DNA of 42,141 bases from an uncultured Bacilli bacterium (lineage in GTDB: Bacteria; Bacillota_I; Bacilli_A; RF39; UBA660). Below, piece after piece: positions 33,193 to 42,082 of the stretch. The position numbers and the translations under genes were made by a program. The notes beneath the pieces are model-generated. The model ran no database searches. It saw only the letters and a program-made list of their open reading frames with translations, and was not told the DNA's origin. The stretch is from contig CANROK010000006.1 in assembly GCA_947632205.1 (NCBI GenBank), positions 1-42,141 of the forward strand, read 5' to 3'. Position 1 is the stretch's first letter. Every line of letters begins with the position of its first letter.

Positions 33193-33330
33193 ATGATTAA
33201 GAAAGCTTTAGTATTCATAATGGATGGTTTAGGAGATAGACCAATAAAAGAATTTGATAATAAAACACCACTTGAATACGCATACACTCCTAATTTTGAC
33301 AAATTAGTTAGGAATCTCAATGTGGTTTAA
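33193..33330 (+). pseudogene. N-terminal fragment of ApgM-type 2,3-bisphosphoglycerate-independent phosphoglycerate mutase
   Basis: MIKKALVFIMDGLGDRPIKEFDNKTPLEYAYTPNFDKLVRNLNVV*; ~40 aa of a normally ~400 aa protein. Confidence 0.75.
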
Positions 33331-33586
33331 TGTAGGATATAATTTAAAAAGCGAATTTTCCAAAGCTTTATCAAATCTTTTCCCTTATGAATTTACATTT
33401 GCTGGTGAACATTTATGTAGTATTGAAGCGTTTTTTCAAGGAATTAAAATTAAAGATAAAAATATTCAAAAATATGCTTTTAAATATAGTGGCATCGATG
33501 CAAATAGTTTAAAAGCTGCAAGTGATTTTAATTGGCAAGAAACGGGAACAATTTATTGGAAAGGAAGAAAAATTAGTAAGAATTAA
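33320..33586 (+). pseudogene. NADAR/YbiA-like protein fragment
   Basis: KALSNLFPYEFTFAGEHLCSIEAFFQGIKIKD...NWQETGTIYWKGR then early stop. Confidence 0.5.
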
Positions 33587-33855: not shown

Positions 33856-34521
33856 ATGGCAAAAGATTTAATGATTAGAAGCAGTGCTGAAGAGTTTATT
33901 ACTTTTAAAATACAAGAAAAAGATAAAGGTATTCAAGTAAGATATGAAAATGAAACTTTATGGATGACTCAAAAAGCAATGGCTGAATTATTTGATGTTC
34001 AAAGACCAGCTATTACAAAACATTTGAATAATATTTTTAAAGAAAATGAATTGGATAGAAAATCAGTATGTTCCAAAATGGAACATACTGCTGAAGATGG
34101 AAAAAAATATCAAACAGAATATTATAATTTAGATGCAATAATTTCTGTAGGATACAGAGTGAATTCAATTAGGGCTACTCAATTTAGAAGATGGGCTACT
34201 AGTGTTTTAAAGACTTTTACGATTCAAGGTTATGTATTAGATAAAGAAAGAATGAAAAACGGTTCTTTTATTGATAAAGATTATTTTGAAAAGTTACTTG
34301 AAGAAATAAGAGAAATAAGGTTATCGGAAAGAAGATTTTATCAAAAAGTAACAGATATATATGCAACAAGCATTGACTATGATTCTAAATCTCCTCTTTC
34401 TATAGATTTTTTTAAAAAAGTTCAAAATAAAATGCATTATGCTGTTTCAAAACAAACTGCTGCCGAAATAATATATGATAGAGTAGATGCTGATAAAGAC
34501 CATATGGGCTTAACATCATGG
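33856..34521 (+). pseudogene. rhuM: RhuM family protein, 5' part; gene interrupted by the integrative element
   Basis: VRYENETLWMTQKAMAELFDVQRPAITKHLNNIF..LDAIISVGYRVNS..ATQFRRWAT..DHMGLTSW. After 34521 the frame reads LVYAK* (34522-34539) into the element. Confidence 0.9.
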
Positions 34522-34754
34522 CTTGTGTATGCGAAATGACACGACAAATAAAAATAATTGATTTGCTTTATTTTAAAGGAAAAACAGAGAATAATCATAT
34601 AACACTAGAAACAAATAAAAATAGTAAAAATGAATATGATTTTAACATAATGGTATCAATAATAAAATAATATATATGTCCTCAATGATACTAAAATCCA
34701 AGAATAATAAAGTAATTAAGTATAATTAAAATTAAGTTTTGAGATTAGTGTATG

Positions 34755-34783
34755 AGGTATGCAATAAAAAGCATATCTTTTTT
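34755..34783 (+). terminator. rho-independent terminator near element left end
   Basis: AGGTATGC-AATAAAAA-GCATATCTTTTTT. Confidence 0.65.
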
Positions 34784-34870
34784 ATATATAATTTATAGCA
34801 AGTATGGTTATTATTTAAAAAATATGATAAAATGTCTTTATAGAAATTCTATTAAAAAAGGAGTCAATAA

Positions 34871-35395
34871 ATGAAAATATATATAGTAAGACATGGTGAA
34901 GTATCTCATAATGCATTGAAACAATATAATACAAAAGATGAAGATTTAACTGAACTTGGAATAAGTCAAGCAGAAGAATTAAGAGACAAAATTAAAGATA
35001 TAAACTTTGATGTTATAATTTCTTCACCTTTAATTAGAGCAAAACACACAGCTAACATTATTAATACTAATAATAATGAGATTATTATTGATGATAGAAT
35101 TCAAGAAAGAAGTTGTGGAGATTTAAGTGGTAAACCTCTTGAAATAACCAATCGTGATGAATATTGGAATTATAATACAACAATTCAATATGGAACCTCT
35201 GAAAATATAAAAAGCTTTTTTGATAGAATATACAATTTTTTAGATGAACTTAAATCTCAAAATTATAAAAGTGTTCTAATTGTTGCACATAGTGGCGTTT
35301 CAAAAGCTTTTAGTGCATATTTTGATGGCATTAATGATGGTTGGTTTTTAAATCGTGGATTAAAGAATTGCGAGATAAAAGAATACAAGTTGTAA
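34871..35395 (+). CDS. histidine phosphatase (phosphoglycerate mutase-like) family protein
   Basis: MKIYIVRHGEVSHNALKQYNTKDEDLTELGISQAEEL; VIISSPLIRAKHTA; IVAHSGVSKAF. Confidence 0.9.
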   Translation: MKIYIVRHGEVSHNALKQYNTKDEDLTELGISQAEELRDKIKDINFDVIISSPLIRAKHTANIINTNNNEIIIDDRIQERSCGDLSGKPLEITNRDEYWNYNTTIQYGTSENIKSFFDRIYNFLDELKSQNYKSVLIVAHSGVSKAFSAYFDGINDGWFLNRGLKNCEIKEYKL

Positions 35396-35412
35396 TATAA
35401 AATGAAAGCGAG

Positions 35413-35961
35413 ATGATATTAATGAAATTAATATGTAAAATAACTGATGAAGATTTAGGCGAAAATATGAGTGAAATGAATGAGCCTAGAATGAGATATG
35501 GTGCAAGAGGAATAGTTATAAGAGATGATGGGAAAATAGCAATATTTAATAAATGCAATAAAAATGAATATAAATTGCCAGGTGGTGGTATGGAAGATGA
35601 TGAAGAACCAGAGGATGCTTTTAAAAGAGAGGTATTAGAAGAAACAGGTTGTATTGTCGATATTGTTGATGAATTGGGAACAACGGAAGAATATAAAAGT
35701 AAAGATAATTTTAAACAAATATCATATGTATTTGTGGGAAAAGTTAAAGAAGATACTAAAAAATTAAATATTACAAAAAAAGAAAAAGACGAGGGAGCTA
35801 TTCTTATTTGGGAAACACCTAAAAAAGCATTAGAATTAATAATTAATTGCTATAATAACTTTATTGCATCTTCTTATGACTCTGTTTATTTTACAAAGTT
35901 TGTAGTATTAAGAGATAGAAAAATTTTAGAATATTATTTAAAGGAGAATGAAAATGAGTAA
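35413..35961 (+). CDS. NUDIX hydrolase
   Basis: Nudix box GGGMEDDEEPEDAFKREVLEETGC (start 35413 or 35422). Confidence 0.9.
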   Translation: MILMKLICKITDEDLGENMSEMNEPRMRYGARGIVIRDDGKIAIFNKCNKNEYKLPGGGMEDDEEPEDAFKREVLEETGCIVDIVDELGTTEEYKSKDNFKQISYVFVGKVKEDTKKLNITKKEKDEGAILIWETPKKALELIINCYNNFIASSYDSVYFTKFVVLRDRKILEYYLKENENE

Positions 35962-36379
35962 TTTAGATTTTATGAGTAAATTTAAACCTGAAACAAGATG
36001 TATTAAAGAATTTGAACATTGGATTGTTTGTATTAGAGGAAAGCAAGCAACATTAGGAGATGCAGTTATACTTTTAAAAAGAGAAACACCATCTGTAGCA
36101 GGTATGCTACCAGAAGAAGGAGCTGAATTTCCTAAAGTTATTAAGTGGTATGAAGACGTTTGTATAAGAAAATTTGGAGCAGTAAAATTTAATTACATTA
36201 TTATGATGATGAAAGATTATTTTGTACATTACCATGCATTTCCAAGATATGATAAAGATTTAAATTTATTTGATATTGAATGGAAAGATAACGATTGGCC
36301 GGGTGCTATTAACTTTAAAGGTGGAGATGTACTTGAAGAAGAAAAATTAGAAGAAATTAAAAATTATATGAGTAAATAA
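35954..36379 (+). CDS. HIT-like protein
   Basis: FEHWIVCIRGKQATLGDAVILLKRE...FNYIIMMMKDYFVHYHAFPRY, HxHxhP histidine-triad-like; ATG at 35954 after aaggag preferred. Confidence 0.6.
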   Translation: MSNLDFMSKFKPETRCIKEFEHWIVCIRGKQATLGDAVILLKRETPSVAGMLPEEGAEFPKVIKWYEDVCIRKFGAVKFNYIIMMMKDYFVHYHAFPRYDKDLNLFDIEWKDNDWPGAINFKGGDVLEEEKLEEIKNYMSK

Positions 36380-36387
36380 ATATAAAA

Positions 36388-36445
36388 AGAAAAATAGAAC
36401 TATTGGATCATAAACAATATACCATACCAATAGTTCTATTTTTTT
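36388..36445. terminator. bidirectional terminator between the cargo operon and the XRE gene
   Basis: AAAAATAGAACTATTGG...CCAATAGTTCTATTTTTTTA. Confidence 0.8.
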
Positions 36446-37061
36446 ATTTAGGAAAATTTTCTTTAATAACTTTATCAATTATATTAAAAATATAATCACG
36501 TTCTTCCATATCGTCACTAATTAAAGCTTTAGGCATTAAAATGTGGTTAGTTTTTTTATTATCATTTTTACTTAAATTGTTATAATACTCTTGTTTTAAA
36601 TCTTCTCTTTTCTCATTATAGTCATCATAAGACATTTTATTTTTAGTTTTTTCCTCATTTAAATTAACTAATTTTAACAAATACTGAACTAAATAATCAT
36701 TCATAGTAAGTTGTATTGTATCAACTGTAATAGGTGTTAAATGTCTATCCATATATTTTTTTTGAAATAATTTAGCACTAAAAATTTTTTCAATTAAATT
36801 TTCAATTAAAAATTCTTCTTCATTAATAAATTCACTTAAACCATATAAATAATCTAAACTAGCATTACAAGTTTTAGAAATATCTATTGCTTCATCTAAC
36901 TTTAATTCTGTACGTCCTGTTTCAATGTTTTTAATTGTATCTAAACTAATATTAGTTTTTCTTGCAAGTTGAGATTGAGAATAACCTTGTTTTTTTCTTG
37001 CAATCTTTACACGTTTTCCTATTTCTTTTTTTTCTAAATCTTCTCCATCATAAATTTCCAT
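36444..37061 (-). CDS. XRE-family transcriptional regulator
   Basis: IGKRVKIARKKQGYSQSQLARKTNISLDTIKNIETGRTELKLDEAIDISKTCNASLDYLYGL. Confidence 0.9.
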   Translation of the reverse strand: MEIYDGEDLEKKEIGKRVKIARKKQGYSQSQLARKTNISLDTIKNIETGRTELKLDEAIDISKTCNASLDYLYGLSEFINEEEFLIENLIEKIFSAKLFQKKYMDRHLTPITVDTIQLTMNDYLVQYLLKLVNLNEEKTKNKMSYDDYNEKREDLKQEYYNNLSKNDNKKTNHILMPKALISDDMEERDYIFNIIDKVIKENFPK

Positions 37062-37112
37062 AAGAACCTCCTTTTTTGATTTCTATTATATTACAAAATG
37101 TTAAATTAAGAT

Positions 37113-37163
37113 AGTGTTTTAATATTATACACCATTTGAAAATAAACAACACTTTTGAAAATA
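37113..37163. promoter_or_regulatory. candidate operator region of the XRE repressor
   Basis: Direct repeat TTTGAAAATA (37135-37144, 37154-37163) and inverted AGTGTT (37113) / AACACT (37148) in the divergent intergenic region. Confidence 0.4.
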
Positions 37164-37196
37164 GATACTACACTAGAGGTTGATATATATTATAAG

Positions 37197-37254
37197 TGTC
37201 AGAGGGAAAACTAGCTAGTCACTGACAAAGAAAAATCAATAGCAATATGCTATT
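37197..37254. repeat. two inverted repeats in the leader of the small ORF
   Basis: TGTCAG...CTGACA (37197-37227) and AATAGCAATATGCTATT (37238-37254). Confidence 0.6.
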
Positions 37255-37270
37255 AGGAAGGAGAAAAGTT

Positions 37271-37456
37271 ATGAACATAAATGCGAAGTTAGAAGAAAGA
37301 ACTAGCAAAGAGGGAAATCCATATTTCTGTATTGTGATTAAACTAACAGAGAATGCTGAAAAAATCGTGTTTTTAAATAGTGTAGAGCTTGAATTGTTAA
37401 GATTAACTTATGGCAATAGTAGTCAAAAGATTAAGATGTCAAGTCAAAATTCCTAA
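37271..37456 (+). CDS. small conserved element protein (61 aa)
   Basis: AAGGAGAAAAGTT RBS then MNINAKLEERTSKEGNPYFCIVIKLTENAEKIVFLNSVELELLRL; the upstream ATG at 37247 overlaps the hairpin. Confidence 0.65.
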   Translation: MNINAKLEERTSKEGNPYFCIVIKLTENAEKIVFLNSVELELLRLTYGNSSQKIKMSSQNS

Positions 37457-37479
37457 TGCTAAAACTGATAATAGTTATG

Positions 37480-37515
37480 CAAGCTGGCGTGGTCGTAAGA
37501 CCACAGCCAAGCTTG
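37480..37515 (+). repeat. stem-loop A upstream of the Rep (GTAA tetraloop)
   Basis: CAAGCT-GGC-GTGGTC-GTAA-GACCAC-a-GCC-a-AGCTTG. Confidence 0.85.
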
Positions 37516-37516
37516 T

Positions 37517-37544
37517 AAGCTAAAGTCAGTATTACCTTTAGCTT
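37517..37544 (+). other. candidate rolling-circle origin stem-loop with CRESS-type nonanucleotide CAGTATTAC
   Basis: AAGCTAAAG-T-CAGTATTAC-CTTTAGCTT: perfect 9-bp stem, nonanucleotide at 37527-37535 fits NANTATTAC, immediately upstream of a HUH/SF3-like Rep. Followed by tandem GTGCGTGC (37554-37561). Confidence 0.75.
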
Positions 37545-37584
37545 AATAATTTTGTGCGTGCATTACTTAATTAATTTTAAGGAG

Positions 37585-38649
37585 ATGGTAGTTATAGATA
37601 GCAAAGATAAAGAATTAAATAAAATTCAAGATAAATCTAAAGAAAAAATTAAAGATGTTTGTACTCGTATGTGGCATATTGTAATTGCTAATCCAAAAGA
37701 TAAAGATTTAGAACATGATAGAATAAAAGAAATATGTTCAAAGTCTAAAAATAAAGTTGAGTTTGGAGCAATGGTTGATGAGTTAGCACCATCTACAAAA
37801 CTATATCATACTCATCTTGTACTAGTATTCAAAAACCCAATTCGTAGAAGTACATTGTGTGGTAAAAAATGGTTTCAAAATTCTCATTGTGAAGCTATTC
37901 GTGGAACTTTACAAGATAATTTGGATTATTTACTTAAAGTTAATCGCCATGCTAATAAAAAGGAGTGTCAGGTTGAGGGAACTTACGAAGAAATAGGAAA
38001 TAAACCTACTATAAAAATAAAACAGGAAAAAGAAAAATTAACAGATATTATTCTAAAATATGTAGAAGATGGAATGAGTACAGCAGATATGATAAAAGCT
38101 GATAGTCGCCTTATAAATAAAATTAGAGAAATAGAACTTACTAGACAACTTTTAATTTCTAAAGAATATATGATTAAGTCAAGAGATGTAAAAGTAGTTT
38201 ATATATGGGGTAAACCCGCAACAGGTAAAACGACATATGTATATGAACATCATGACCCTGAAACTATTTGTCGTATAACTAATTATAGTCGTACTAGAGG
38301 AATATTATTTGATAATTTCGAAAGTGGTAAACATGATGTACTGGTCTTTGAGGATTGGTCATCGACATTTGCTAGGGTTCAGGATATGTTAGGGTGGCTA
38401 GATAAATGGGGAACAATGCTTCCAAGTCGCTATACAGACAAATGTTCATCATATCATTTTGTATACATAATTTCTAATATTCCATATGAAGAACAATATT
38501 CAGAACTAAAATATACTAACATGGATTTATATATGGCTTGGGACAGACGTGTAGATGTGATATTAAATTTTAGAAAAAAATATGATGGTTCTGTAGAAAT
38601 TATAGAACAAAGAAATAGAAAAAAAGAAAAGGAGAATAATCATGAATAA
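37585..38649 (+). CDS. rep: CRESS-DNA-type replication initiator (HUH endonuclease + SF3-like helicase)
   Basis: HUH motif YHTHLVLVF; YxxK motif DYLLK; Walker A WGKPATGKTTYV; Walker B VLVFEDW; motif C-like FVYIISNIP. Start ATG 37585 (after aagg) or TTG 37552. Confidence 0.85.
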   Translation: MVVIDSKDKELNKIQDKSKEKIKDVCTRMWHIVIANPKDKDLEHDRIKEICSKSKNKVEFGAMVDELAPSTKLYHTHLVLVFKNPIRRSTLCGKKWFQNSHCEAIRGTLQDNLDYLLKVNRHANKKECQVEGTYEEIGNKPTIKIKQEKEKLTDIILKYVEDGMSTADMIKADSRLINKIREIELTRQLLISKEYMIKSRDVKVVYIWGKPATGKTTYVYEHHDPETICRITNYSRTRGILFDNFESGKHDVLVFEDWSSTFARVQDMLGWLDKWGTMLPSRYTDKCSSYHFVYIISNIPYEEQYSELKYTNMDLYMAWDRRVDVILNFRKKYDGSVEIIEQRNRKKEKENNHE

Positions 38650-40048
38650 AAATATAAATCAAGTAACAGAAGAAAAAGTTAAGAAAGCTACTACTTGGAA
38701 ACAAGATGTAGAAATAGCAGTTAATCAATTCTTGTACCCATGGAAAGATATAACAGCACTATTAGGAGCATTATCTATTCCATACATAAATAAAGGATTT
38801 GCCAATTTATCAGCAATTCAAAGTGCGAATAATATTTATGAAAGCACCTTAAAAATGTTGCAACTAGAAAATACTCCAATTTTAAAGGATCTTTCAGCAA
38901 ATGGTATATTAACAGGAATATTATATTTCTTATTGTTATATGTATTATCTAAACCATATATGCTTAATAATAAAGCAAAAGATTGCAGAGATTTAAAAAT
39001 AACAGATAATCATACAGAAAGTGGAAATACAATTATTCCAATAAGAAAGGTAAAATCATTTAAAAATCCTAGTGTTAGAAAATTAATTTGTTATAGTAAT
39101 GGTGTATTAGCAAAAGATTTTGAAGAAGATGACAAATTAGAAAGATTATCTAAAAAATGGGGTAAATTTGTTATTGATGTAGAGGAGTATAAATCAAATA
39201 AACTAATTATCAATTATAAAAAACATAAAAGTAATAAAATGTTGTTTTGGAAAAATGATTACTTATTGAAAGATGATTTTAAAATTATATTAGGTATTAA
39301 TGATAAAGGAGAAAAGAAAATTCTAGATTTTAACATTATACCTCATATAACTATTAGTTCAGCTAGTGGTGGTGGAAAAACAACCTTATTTAAGAGTATA
39401 TTCATGCAAAGTTATTTAAAGGGTGCAAAAATTATAATTGCAGACTTTAAAGGTGGGTTAGACTTTAATAAAGGCTGGGACAGATTAGGTAAAGAAAGAT
39501 GTAAGATTATTACTGACGTAAAAACTTTATGGGATTATGTTTCTTATGATTTACCTGATATAGCAAACGAAAGAAAAGCATTATTAAATCGTTATAATTG
39601 TGAAAGTGCTAAAGAATATAATGAGAAGATAGACAAAGGAGAAATAGTAGGAGAAAAAATACAAAGAAAAGTAATTGGACTAGATGAGGCAGCACAGGTA
39701 TTTATTAAATCTAAAAACAAAGATGAAGAAGAAAAATTACAACAAATAAGGGGAAAAATAGAAAATATTTCTTCTCTATATAGAGCAATTAATATTAACC
39801 TAGTAATCTCAACTCAAGTGCCTAGTTCATCTGTACTTACAGAGGCAGTTCGCCATAATGCAGTTTTAAGGATTTGTGGACGAGCTAATAAAATATTAAG
39901 TCAGGTAGCTATTGAAAAAGATATTGCCTCTACTATATCAGCAAATGATAGAGGACGTTTTGCAACAAATGAAGATAAAGATTGTTTCTTTCAGGGGTAT
40001 TTATTCTATGAAAAAGATGTATTTCCTGAATTAAAGGAAAATAAATAA
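38642..40048 (+). CDS. FtsK/SpoIIIE/TcpA-like DNA translocase (coupling protein-like)
   Basis: Hydrophobic N-terminal segments; SSASGGGKTTLFKSIF Walker A; KIIIADFKGGLDF; VIGLDEAAQVF; VISTQVPSSSVLTEAVRHNAVLRICGRA. Confidence 0.88.
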   Translation: MNKNINQVTEEKVKKATTWKQDVEIAVNQFLYPWKDITALLGALSIPYINKGFANLSAIQSANNIYESTLKMLQLENTPILKDLSANGILTGILYFLLLYVLSKPYMLNNKAKDCRDLKITDNHTESGNTIIPIRKVKSFKNPSVRKLICYSNGVLAKDFEEDDKLERLSKKWGKFVIDVEEYKSNKLIINYKKHKSNKMLFWKNDYLLKDDFKIILGINDKGEKKILDFNIIPHITISSASGGGKTTLFKSIFMQSYLKGAKIIIADFKGGLDFNKGWDRLGKERCKIITDVKTLWDYVSYDLPDIANERKALLNRYNCESAKEYNEKIDKGEIVGEKIQRKVIGLDEAAQVFIKSKNKDEEEKLQQIRGKIENISSLYRAININLVISTQVPSSSVLTEAVRHNAVLRICGRANKILSQVAIEKDIASTISANDRGRFATNEDKDCFFQGYLFYEKDVFPELKENK

Positions 40049-40166
40049 AATTTTCTATTTGATAAAGCACTATAAAATTATAATTTGTTGTTTTGTATTA
40101 CATGAAATTGAGGAAAGGAAAGGTGTGAGATTAGCTTATAAAATAAAATGTTAAGGAGATGGTTAA

Positions 40167-40316
40167 ATGAAGAAAGATAAGTTAACACAAATAGAGATTG
40201 ATAATGTTATTGATAAAGTAATAAACTTATCAATTATCTCACGTATTATGAATTTGAATTTAATCACAGAAAAACAATTCTATGTGCTAAAAGAAAAAAT
40301 AAAATCTTTTTACTAG
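40167..40316 (+). CDS. SHOCT-like small protein (49 aa)
   Basis: Missing from the ORF list. MKKDKLTQIEIDNVIDKVINLSIISRIMNLNLITEKQFYVLKEKIKSFY*, RBS ttaaggagatgg; typical position before a serine recombinase. Confidence 0.7.
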   Translation: MKKDKLTQIEIDNVIDKVINLSIISRIMNLNLITEKQFYVLKEKIKSFY

Positions 40317-40405
40317 AATTGTAAATGATTAGATTATAGTGTATAATATTTGCGAGGACATAAATAGAGAAATGTTCAATAAATTATTGAAGAAAGAGAG
40401 GTAAA

Positions 40406-42082
40406 ATGGCACAGGTTGAGATTATAAAAGCTAATCTCAAAACTGAAAAACAAGAAAACGTTAAAAGTAATACAAAAAGAGTTTGTGCTTATTGTCGTGT
40501 TAGTACAGATAGTGAGGAACAACAAACAAGTTATAATTCACAGATAAAACATTATTCAGCTCAAATTAAATCTAATCCAAATTGGGAGTTTGTAGGAATA
40601 TATGCAGATGAGGGTATTTCAGGAACGCAAGTAAAAAACAGAACAGAGTTCCAAAGAATGTTAAACGACGCATTAGATGGTAAAATTGATATTATAATTG
40701 CAAAATCAATATCAAGATTTGCTAGAAATACAATAGATACTTTAAAATATGCAAGACTATTACGCGACCATAAAATAGATATATATTTTGAAAAAGAAAA
40801 TATACATACATTGGATTTAGATAGTGAAATGTTTTTAACTCTTTATAGTGCTTTTGCTCAAGCAGAGAGTGAGTCAACATCAATGAATGTAAAATTAGGA
40901 TTAAAAGCAATCATGAAACGAGGAGAACCTGTTGGAAATCCAAATTGTTATGGTTATGAATGGGACAAAGATACAAAAACATTTAAAATAAATGAAGAAC
41001 AATCTGAAGTGGTTAGAAAAATATTTAATTGGTATGTATCAGGAATTGGTTCTTATACCATAGCAAAGAAATTAAACGAAGAAAAGATATTAACTCAATG
41101 GGGTAATAAATGGTGTCCTAGTTCTGTAAGAAGAATACTAACAAATGAAAAATATGTTGGTGATTTATTAGGTCAAAAAACTTATGTAAGTAATCCATTA
41201 ACACATAAGCATATTATCAATTATGGCGAAAAAGAGAAATACTATGTTAAAGACCATCACGAACCAATTATTACAAGAGATGTTTGGAATAAATCACAAG
41301 AAATATATTCTAAAAGAGGCAATAAATTGCAACCTGATGGAAAACAACATAATGGGAAATTTAGTTTAAGATACCCATATAGTAGTAAAATTGAATGTGG
41401 TATATGTGGAGCTAATTTTACAAGAAGAATGAATGAAAAAAGAAAAGATGGAACTCGTAAAGTTTATTGGGCATGTACTAAAAGAATAACTTATATAGAA
41501 AATTGTAGTAATTCATTATTTATTACAGAAGAAATACTAAATGATATTTTTGTAAAAATATATAACACTATAATTGAGAAAAAACACAAGACTAAAGAAA
41601 AGCTGTTTAATGCAATAAAAGAAACATTAACAAAAGATGATAGCAAAAGTAAAATTGATAAATTGTTTAATGAAAAGCAAACATTGGAAAAAAGGCTTTC
41701 AAATTTAATTGATATAAAATTAGATGATTATGAAAATAAAGAGGCATATATCAATAAAGAAAAAGAAATCAATGAAGAGTTGAAAAAGATAAAAGAACAG
41801 ATAACAGAATATGAGCTAATAAATTCTGCTAATAAAAATATATCAAAAAGACTTTCACAGATTGAGAAGATATTAGATGAACCTAAAACAATAAAAGAAT
41901 TTGATAGAGAAATATTTGATAATTTAGTAGAAAAAATCATCATAGGAGAAAAAGACGAGAATGACAATATAAATCCAAATACAATAAGATTTATATTAAA
42001 AATTGGAACTGAATATAAGTATGAAATTAACGAAAATAAAAACGTGTCATTACGACCTGACAACGTGGAAAAATTCACCTAA
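40406..42082 (+). CDS. large serine recombinase (resolvase/invertase N-terminal + recombinase + zinc ribbon + coiled coil)
   Basis: RVCAYCRVSTDSEEQQTSYNSQIKHY; ADEGISGTQVKNRTEFQRML; IAKSISRFARNT; zinc-ribbon CGICGANFTRR..WACTKR..C; C-terminal coiled coil. Last residues EKFT* are encoded by rhuM target DNA. Confidence 0.96.
   Translation: MAQVEIIKANLKTEKQENVKSNTKRVCAYCRVSTDSEEQQTSYNSQIKHYSAQIKSNPNWEFVGIYADEGISGTQVKNRTEFQRMLNDALDGKIDIIIAKSISRFARNTIDTLKYARLLRDHKIDIYFEKENIHTLDLDSEMFLTLYSAFAQAESESTSMNVKLGLKAIMKRGEPVGNPNCYGYEWDKDTKTFKINEEQSEVVRKIFNWYVSGIGSYTIAKKLNEEKILTQWGNKWCPSSVRRILTNEKYVGDLLGQKTYVSNPLTHKHIINYGEKEKYYVKDHHEPIITRDVWNKSQEIYSKRGNKLQPDGKQHNGKFSLRYPYSSKIECGICGANFTRRMNEKRKDGTRKVYWACTKRITYIENCSNSLFITEEILNDIFVKIYNTIIEKKHKTKEKLFNAIKETLTKDDSKSKIDKLFNEKQTLEKRLSNLIDIKLDDYENKEAYINKEKEINEELKKIKEQITEYELINSANKNISKRLSQIEKILDEPKTIKEFDREIFDNLVEKIIIGEKDENDNINPNTIRFILKIGTEYKYEINENKNVSLRPDNVEKFT

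Follow-up and report, generated by a model that had tools for sequence, protein, structure and literature searches.

Small integrative mobilizable elements (IMEs) that pair a rolling-circle (RCR) initiator with the coupling protein TcpA were reported from streptococci by Coluzzi 2017 (PMC5357655). In that report, two elements carry a PF02407 Viral_Rep together with TcpA, IMEs with Rep_2, a PF00910 helicase, and TcpA make up 4 of 15, the RCR initiators are proposed by association to serve as relaxases that use helper pores, and mobilizability is also argued for small plasmids in which an RCR initiator adjoins TcpA. RCR initiators of ICEs that both replicate and transfer their elements provide published precedent (PMC5357655, PMC5704250), and the helpers were proposed to possess TcpA along with an FA-type pore (Guedon 2017). 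An SF3-bearing Rep family also was noted previously in inoviruses (Roux 2019). The initial annotation of the locus studied here had supposed that FtsK-like proteins are not known to be paired with a CRESS/SF3 Rep; this was incorrect, as the Viral_Rep plus TcpA IMEs of Coluzzi 2017 (PMC5357655) demonstrate.

The window (the whole 42,141-nucleotide stretch of uncultured Bacilli DNA that was analyzed) contains a site-specific mobile element in rhuM, and a 98% identical backbone occupies a different rhuM in another genus. Comparison with an empty rhuM site in genome G098 (locus L018, 1-304), which represents that other genus of the same family, revealed that the window flanks join exactly in the intact sequence there (...TTAACATCATGGAAAAATTCACCTAATGG...); the element therefore spans 34522-42068 on the forward strand (7547 bp) with a TGG core at each end (34519-34521 and 42066-42068). 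The 5' portion of the interrupted host gene (33856-34521, forward strand) matched Pfam Virulence_RhuM with E=8e-72, and its reading frame picks up again at 42066 as WKNSPNGKIMESDV. At the left junction ACATCATGG meets CTTGTG, at the right junction CAACGTGG meets AAAAATTCACC, and the attP of the excised circle is predicted to join CAACGTGG to CTTGTGTATGCG. The sister copy in G098 shares 97.9% DNA identity over the backbone (the genes for the 69-aa protein, Rep, TcpA, the 49-aa protein, and the serine recombinase), is inserted at the same codon of a second rhuM that is ∼53% identical, carries different cargo, and has TGA in place of TGG, a change of one base, as its core at attL. Both genomes are draft assemblies, with that of the window being metagenome-derived and 89% complete. 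The independent insertion and the exchange of cargo between the two copies demonstrate recent mobility. All core frames in the window element are open and catalytic residues are kept, and no near-identical DNA was found in plasmids. The integration features of IMEs were thus observed: an element-encoded serine recombinase, precise junctions, and an empty site.

Several observations concern the surroundings of such elements. The G098 neighborhood that is syntenic with the window (L018, 1-14250) holds two tandem rhuM genes together with a second serine recombinase, a KilA-N-like gene, and others, and looks like an insertion hot spot. In the window, the truncated start of a phosphoglycerate-mutase-like gene runs into a NADAR/YbiA-like open reading frame at 33193-33586, which by eye resembles a gene remnant. 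A YchF GTPase gene adjoins several Rep-TcpA elements (L093, 7060-8196, and six other loci) and is possibly a common insertion site for them.

The cargo of the window element, all on the forward strand, consists of a histidine phosphatase (34871-35395; His_Phos_1, E=8e-36) that is missing from the sister copy, a NUDIX hydrolase (35413-35961; E=1e-14), and a 143-aa protein (35948-36379) without a family match. A Cro/CI-like HTH regulator (36444-37061; HTH_3, E=1e-13) is encoded on the reverse strand. Next on the forward strand, upstream of the origin, comes a gene for a 69-aa protein (37247-37456) with homologues at the same position in six loci. Most relatives instead encode, directly 5' of the origin, a conserved protein of ∼105 aa (MKITDLIIDPKSLG...AKATGI; e.g., L059, 9511-9828) that lacks a Pfam match, and a protein of 64-69 aa takes its place in the group of the window. 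A HelP/DUF961 identity for the ∼105-aa protein was rejected, with neither a Pfam hit nor a profile match. Downstream of tcpA lie a gene for a 49-aa protein (40167-40316, forward strand), kept in the sister copy and from its position a possible excisionase, and the gene for the large serine recombinase (40406-42082, forward strand; Resolvase, 8e-32; Recombinase, 1e-24; Zn_ribbon, 2e-9), the 3' end of which spans attR.

Rep is encoded at 37585-38649 on the forward strand with an uncertain start codon; the first ATG (37585) directly abuts AGGAG, and the frame is open from a TTG at 37552. The protein is a single-tyrosine HUH endonuclease joined to an SF3 helicase, with HUH residues H75 and H77, motif III Y115-x-x-K118 (YLLK), Walker A, Walker B, motif C (N298), and arginine-finger residues. 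These motif residues were invariant or nearly so when aligned with 44 relatives, with H75, H77, Y115, K118, the Walker A lysine, and N298 being invariant across 44 Reps. The AlphaFold model (mean pLDDT 87) matched the Reps of a redondovirus and of PCV2 as well as structures of circovirus endonuclease domains in complex with their cleavage site, a search of a viral fold library returned CRESS Reps throughout, and the sequence profile matched PCV2 Rep at 5e-19. The window Rep forms a long branch in the tree and itself has no Pfam Viral_Rep match; relatives of its type matched that family in 9 of 9 cases scanned, several of them also matching PF00910. The HUH, YxxK, and SF3 motifs of a CRESS-type Rep are all present.

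Just 5' of rep we identified a stem-loop with a perfect 10-bp stem (37516-37545, forward strand; z=-2.5) and the loop TCAGTATTAC, which contains NANTATTAC, as is typical of a CRESS-type origin. NANTATTAC is the nonanucleotide of CRESS viruses. In circoviruses, geminiviruses, and nanoviruses, the nick falls after the seventh of its nine bases, and the corresponding predicted nick in the window (TATT^AC, forward strand) falls between 37533 and 37534. By reading, an iteron-like tandem GTGC GTGC follows at 37554-37561; 3' of the stem, most relatives have GTAGCA(T)GTAGCA where the window has GTGCGTGC. In a first scan, 84 of the 99 loci had a hairpin of the NANTATTAC type in the 700 bp that precede rep, compared to 0.0019 expected per 700 bp from control sequence of the same loci (3 hairpins in 1.13 Mb). 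A second count, which allowed for over-long ORF starts and used looser criteria (6 of 8 pairs), raised the number of loci with an origin hairpin next to rep to 92 of 99 versus ∼0.2 expected: 51/52 TcpA-linked loci, 16/16 Zot-linked loci, 9/9 loci that have a short ATPase, and 16/22 in which no ATPase was found. The 48 distinct pairs of stem arms were 97.4% complementary, a value raised somewhat by the inclusion rule of at least 6 pairs, versus 43.8% when the arms were shuffled, so the stem is kept by covariation while its sequence changes. In the Bacilli group (L019, L066, L073, L074, L076, L089, and L091) the origin and iterons are inverted relative to rep. On its 5' side the origin is preceded by another, longer hairpin, which in the window occupies 37482-37515 on the forward strand (z=-3.4) and in most relatives of the same orientation has a z of about -4 to -8 (mononucleotide shuffles). 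Because the single-strand origin lies upstream of the double-strand origin in most RCR plasmids (PMC4595007), we would guess, by analogy, that this hairpin is a candidate single-strand origin.

The ATPase gene (38642-40048, forward strand) begins with an ATG that overlaps the end of rep (38649) by 8 bp, with AAGGAG, a ribosome-binding site, in the rep end just 5' of it. Its product is predicted by hydropathy to have a single N-terminal membrane helix. A profile built from 27 sequences matched pCW3 TcpA at E=2.9e-94 compared to 1e-35 for FtsK; on this basis the protein is TcpA and a cell-division FtsK identity was rejected. A fold search agreed, using a model that is weak in the N-terminal part. 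The window therefore holds the TcpA found in IMEs with RCR-type relaxases. The initial annotation had named the two proteins a CRESS Rep and an FtsK/TcpA-like ATPase with genes overlapping at 38642-38649; the Rep motifs and its model matches to PCV2 and redondovirus Reps bear out the one, the profile values specify the other as TcpA, and the overlap is exactly as claimed.

We then surveyed the association of Rep with TcpA. A scan of genome contigs found 229 Rep relatives, 80 of which were kept, and further relatives drawn from phage records and whole-genome sequences brought the set to 99 Rep loci, a sample biased toward relatives of the query. TcpA was encoded directly downstream on the same strand in 52 loci (almost all in Bacillota), Zot in 16, and a short upstream ATPase in 9, whereas none of these was found in 22. 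Within the clade that includes the window Rep (support 100/100), 50 of 53 Reps were linked to TcpA; two of the exceptions are at contig ends, and in the third (L112) a tyrosine integrase takes the place of TcpA. Another Rep-TcpA group (L022 and L023) is nested among Zot-linked Reps. Mapping the TcpA label onto the tree required 5 changes versus 32.7 with shuffled labels, so the linkage is inherited with a few switches. The pairing is not due to chance. In 45 of the 52 loci, the longest TcpA frame and rep overlap. Integrases of the serine or tyrosine type adjoin the pair in most loci, with tyrosine integrases in ∼30 related loci and Tn916-type Xis/Int in many. In a second arrangement, a short TcpA/FtsK-like ATPase (∼235-265 aa) is encoded upstream of a related Rep (L108, L115, L119, L120, L121, L124, L132, L134, L135, and plasmid p4M, L145), and several of these loci have a serine recombinase on the opposite strand. 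A scan of viral contigs with a single protein sequence returned no relative.

Relaxases and pore genes were sought in the same data. The ORF list and Pfam searches revealed no relaxase or T4SS gene within the 7.5-kb element, just as the initial annotation had stated, and specifically no MobT relaxase or FA-type T4SS of the Tn916/ICEBs1 type (Pfam). No relaxase family was among the 25 top Pfam families listed per tally for 136 neighbor proteins of at least 170 aa, and matches to PF03432, PF02486, and PF01076 in 30 carrier genomes apparently lie outside the Rep loci, as judged by coordinates. When MOBP, MOBT, and MOBV seeds were used to look for homologues in the loci, one Mob_Pre gene emerged, located 10.2 kb from Rep in L020, and no second relaxase was found by these searches in the 52 Rep-TcpA elements. 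The neighborhood survey proposed earlier thus reveals a conserved gene pair, and the additional relaxase that would have spoken against a Rep-relaxase was not seen in the 52 related loci. The earlier reading of the locus as an IME stands insofar as this is a site-specific mobile element with a conserved Rep-TcpA unit and no pore of its own; its use of a borrowed pore remains a proposal.

We assign a probability of roughly 60% to the reading in which the element is a small IME with Rep nicking and replicating at the loop and TcpA feeding the pore of another element. After excision, Rep very probably would open the stem-loop at 37516-37545, nick TATT^AC in the loop, and stay bound via Y115 while its SF3 domain unwinds the DNA, such that the circle would replicate by the rolling-circle mode. 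The Rep-bound nicked strand would be passed to TcpA and fed into the conjugation pore of another element, with the origin doubling as oriT and the upstream hairpin perhaps priming the second strand. Rep as relaxase, TcpA as coupling protein, and a borrowed pore form a plausible combination, an idea already published. The IME reading is supported by the junctions, the empty site, the independent sister insertion, the invariant catalytic residues, and the fold match to PCV2, circovirus, and redondovirus proteins, and equally by the NANTATTAC hairpins (92/99), the arm complementarity, the Rep-TcpA linkage (50/53), the preference for TcpA over FtsK, and the nearby integrases. It is weakened by the long branch and missing Viral_Rep match of Rep, by the uncertain start codon, and by the helper results. 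Of 31 carrier genomes, 1 encodes TcpC, a marker of FA-type T4SS, and TcpC was not found in the 89%-complete draft genome of the window; that draft has VirB4-like genes (contigs C71 and C20) as well as a VirD4-type gene (C20) and yielded no matching helper. The rarity of TcpC weakens the helper model without refuting it, since an IME and its helper may reside in different genomes. A Tn916-like helper in the same genome was rejected, with no TcpC present and the sole Rep_trans match residing in an inovirus-like prophage on contig C32 (L142, 4113-10182) that encodes a Rep of the Rep_trans type and a Zot-like ATPase along with two large secreted proteins. The VirB4 contig L049 (1253-2271) also contains what by eye is a reverse-transcriptase-like ORF in two frames.

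The absence of any T4SS gene from the element and of TcpC from 30 of the 31 carrier genomes would fit an integrative plasmid, in which Rep and the origin serve only to maintain the excised circle, the TcpA-like motor moves or segregates DNA within the cell, and spread occurs by other routes, for example transduction or transformation; Kazlauskas 2019 assigns most viral-like Reps of bacteria to integrated plasmids. We consider this unlikely, though a credible competitor, given a TcpA profile that matches a conjugation coupling protein far better than FtsK, a pairing that is almost strict in one clade, and recent movement between genera.

Inoviruses with Zot have the same Rep family and the same origin, the L022/L023 Rep-TcpA group is nested among Zot-linked Reps, and the host genome itself carries the prophage on C32, all of which could suggest that the element is a filamentous-phage satellite, or a relative of such a phage that lacks a capsid: an inovirus-type replicon with TcpA in the place of Zot and exit by way of a helper inovirus. 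The element has no match to a Zot/pI morphogenesis ATPase or coat-like gene, on which grounds an inovirus identity was rejected; its TcpA clearly belongs to the conjugation family, and IMEs with the Rep-TcpA gene pair have precedent, making the satellite improbable. Least probable is a decayed remnant that has lost mobility: the draft is metagenome-derived and the sister attL core reads TGA for TGG, but the core frames are open, the catalytic residues and the perfect 10-bp origin stem are kept, and a 98% identical copy is present in another genus.

The preferred IME reading allows a broader suggestion, which is tentative and which we lean slightly against: a widespread mobilizable class could use a circovirus-type NANTATTAC stem-loop as its replication and transfer origin, with a CRESS Rep that cuts and TcpA that delivers, and exchange of TcpA and Zot could turn the replicon from conjugation hitch-hiker to filamentous phage or back. 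A single replication module would link mobilizable elements with CRESS viruses of the eukaryote type and with the filamentous phages of bacteria. That viral Reps have bacterial relatives was already known, and the shared nonanucleotide origin makes the sharing of the whole Rep-origin system testable. The NANTATTAC origin also is a well-delimited oriT candidate for IMEs in which the role of the relaxase has so far only been inferred, and the rarity of the expected FA-type helper in the same genome puts the pore used by these IMEs in question.

Among described systems, the streptococcal IMEs of Coluzzi 2017 (Rel_PF02407 class 7 and Rel_PF01719-PF00910 class 4) resemble the window in combining an integrase, a putative relaxase of the RCR-initiator type, and TcpA with no pore genes; they differ in having tcpA upstream of the relaxase gene and a tyrosine integrase, whereas the window has Rep followed by TcpA and a serine recombinase, and in the portion seen no origin is described for them. 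The Rep-then-TcpA order with either integrase type, its breadth in Clostridia and Bacilli, and the NANTATTAC origin of Rep-TcpA elements, shared with inoviruses, seem to be undescribed; our search of the open literature found no account of NANTATTAC origins in bacterial elements, although earlier reports are possible. The pCRESS integrated plasmids (Kazlauskas 2019) likewise have a bacterial, viral-like HUH plus SF3 Rep and site-specific integration, but pCRESS4-8 possess YLxH in motif III rather than YLLK, and the main text includes neither TcpA or FtsK nor a nonanucleotide. Plasmid p4M (NC_003527) encodes a related Rep adjoining an FtsK-like ATPase that is shorter and upstream of rep; it was rejected as a nonanucleotide carrier, with no TATTAC motif found in the record. 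Tn916/ICEBs1 ICEs share a TcpA-type coupling protein with an HUH initiator/relaxase, and Tn916-type Xis/Int occur in relatives of the window, but their MobT (Rep_trans) relaxase lacks SF3 and they encode an FA-type pore themselves. Circoviruses and other CRESS-DNA viruses have the same Rep fold and motifs, NANTATTAC stem-loop, and adjoining iterons, whereas the window element, in which no ORF or family match for a capsid gene was found, has a bacterial host, a recombinase, and TcpA. The inoviruses with SF3-type Rep (iPF_00203 of Roux 2019 and the bajarodino viruses) carry Zot and phage genes in place of TcpA, yet they share the origin type and a related Rep, with bajarodino virus Reps being 30-34% identical to the window Rep and 42-47% identical to that of its relative L059.
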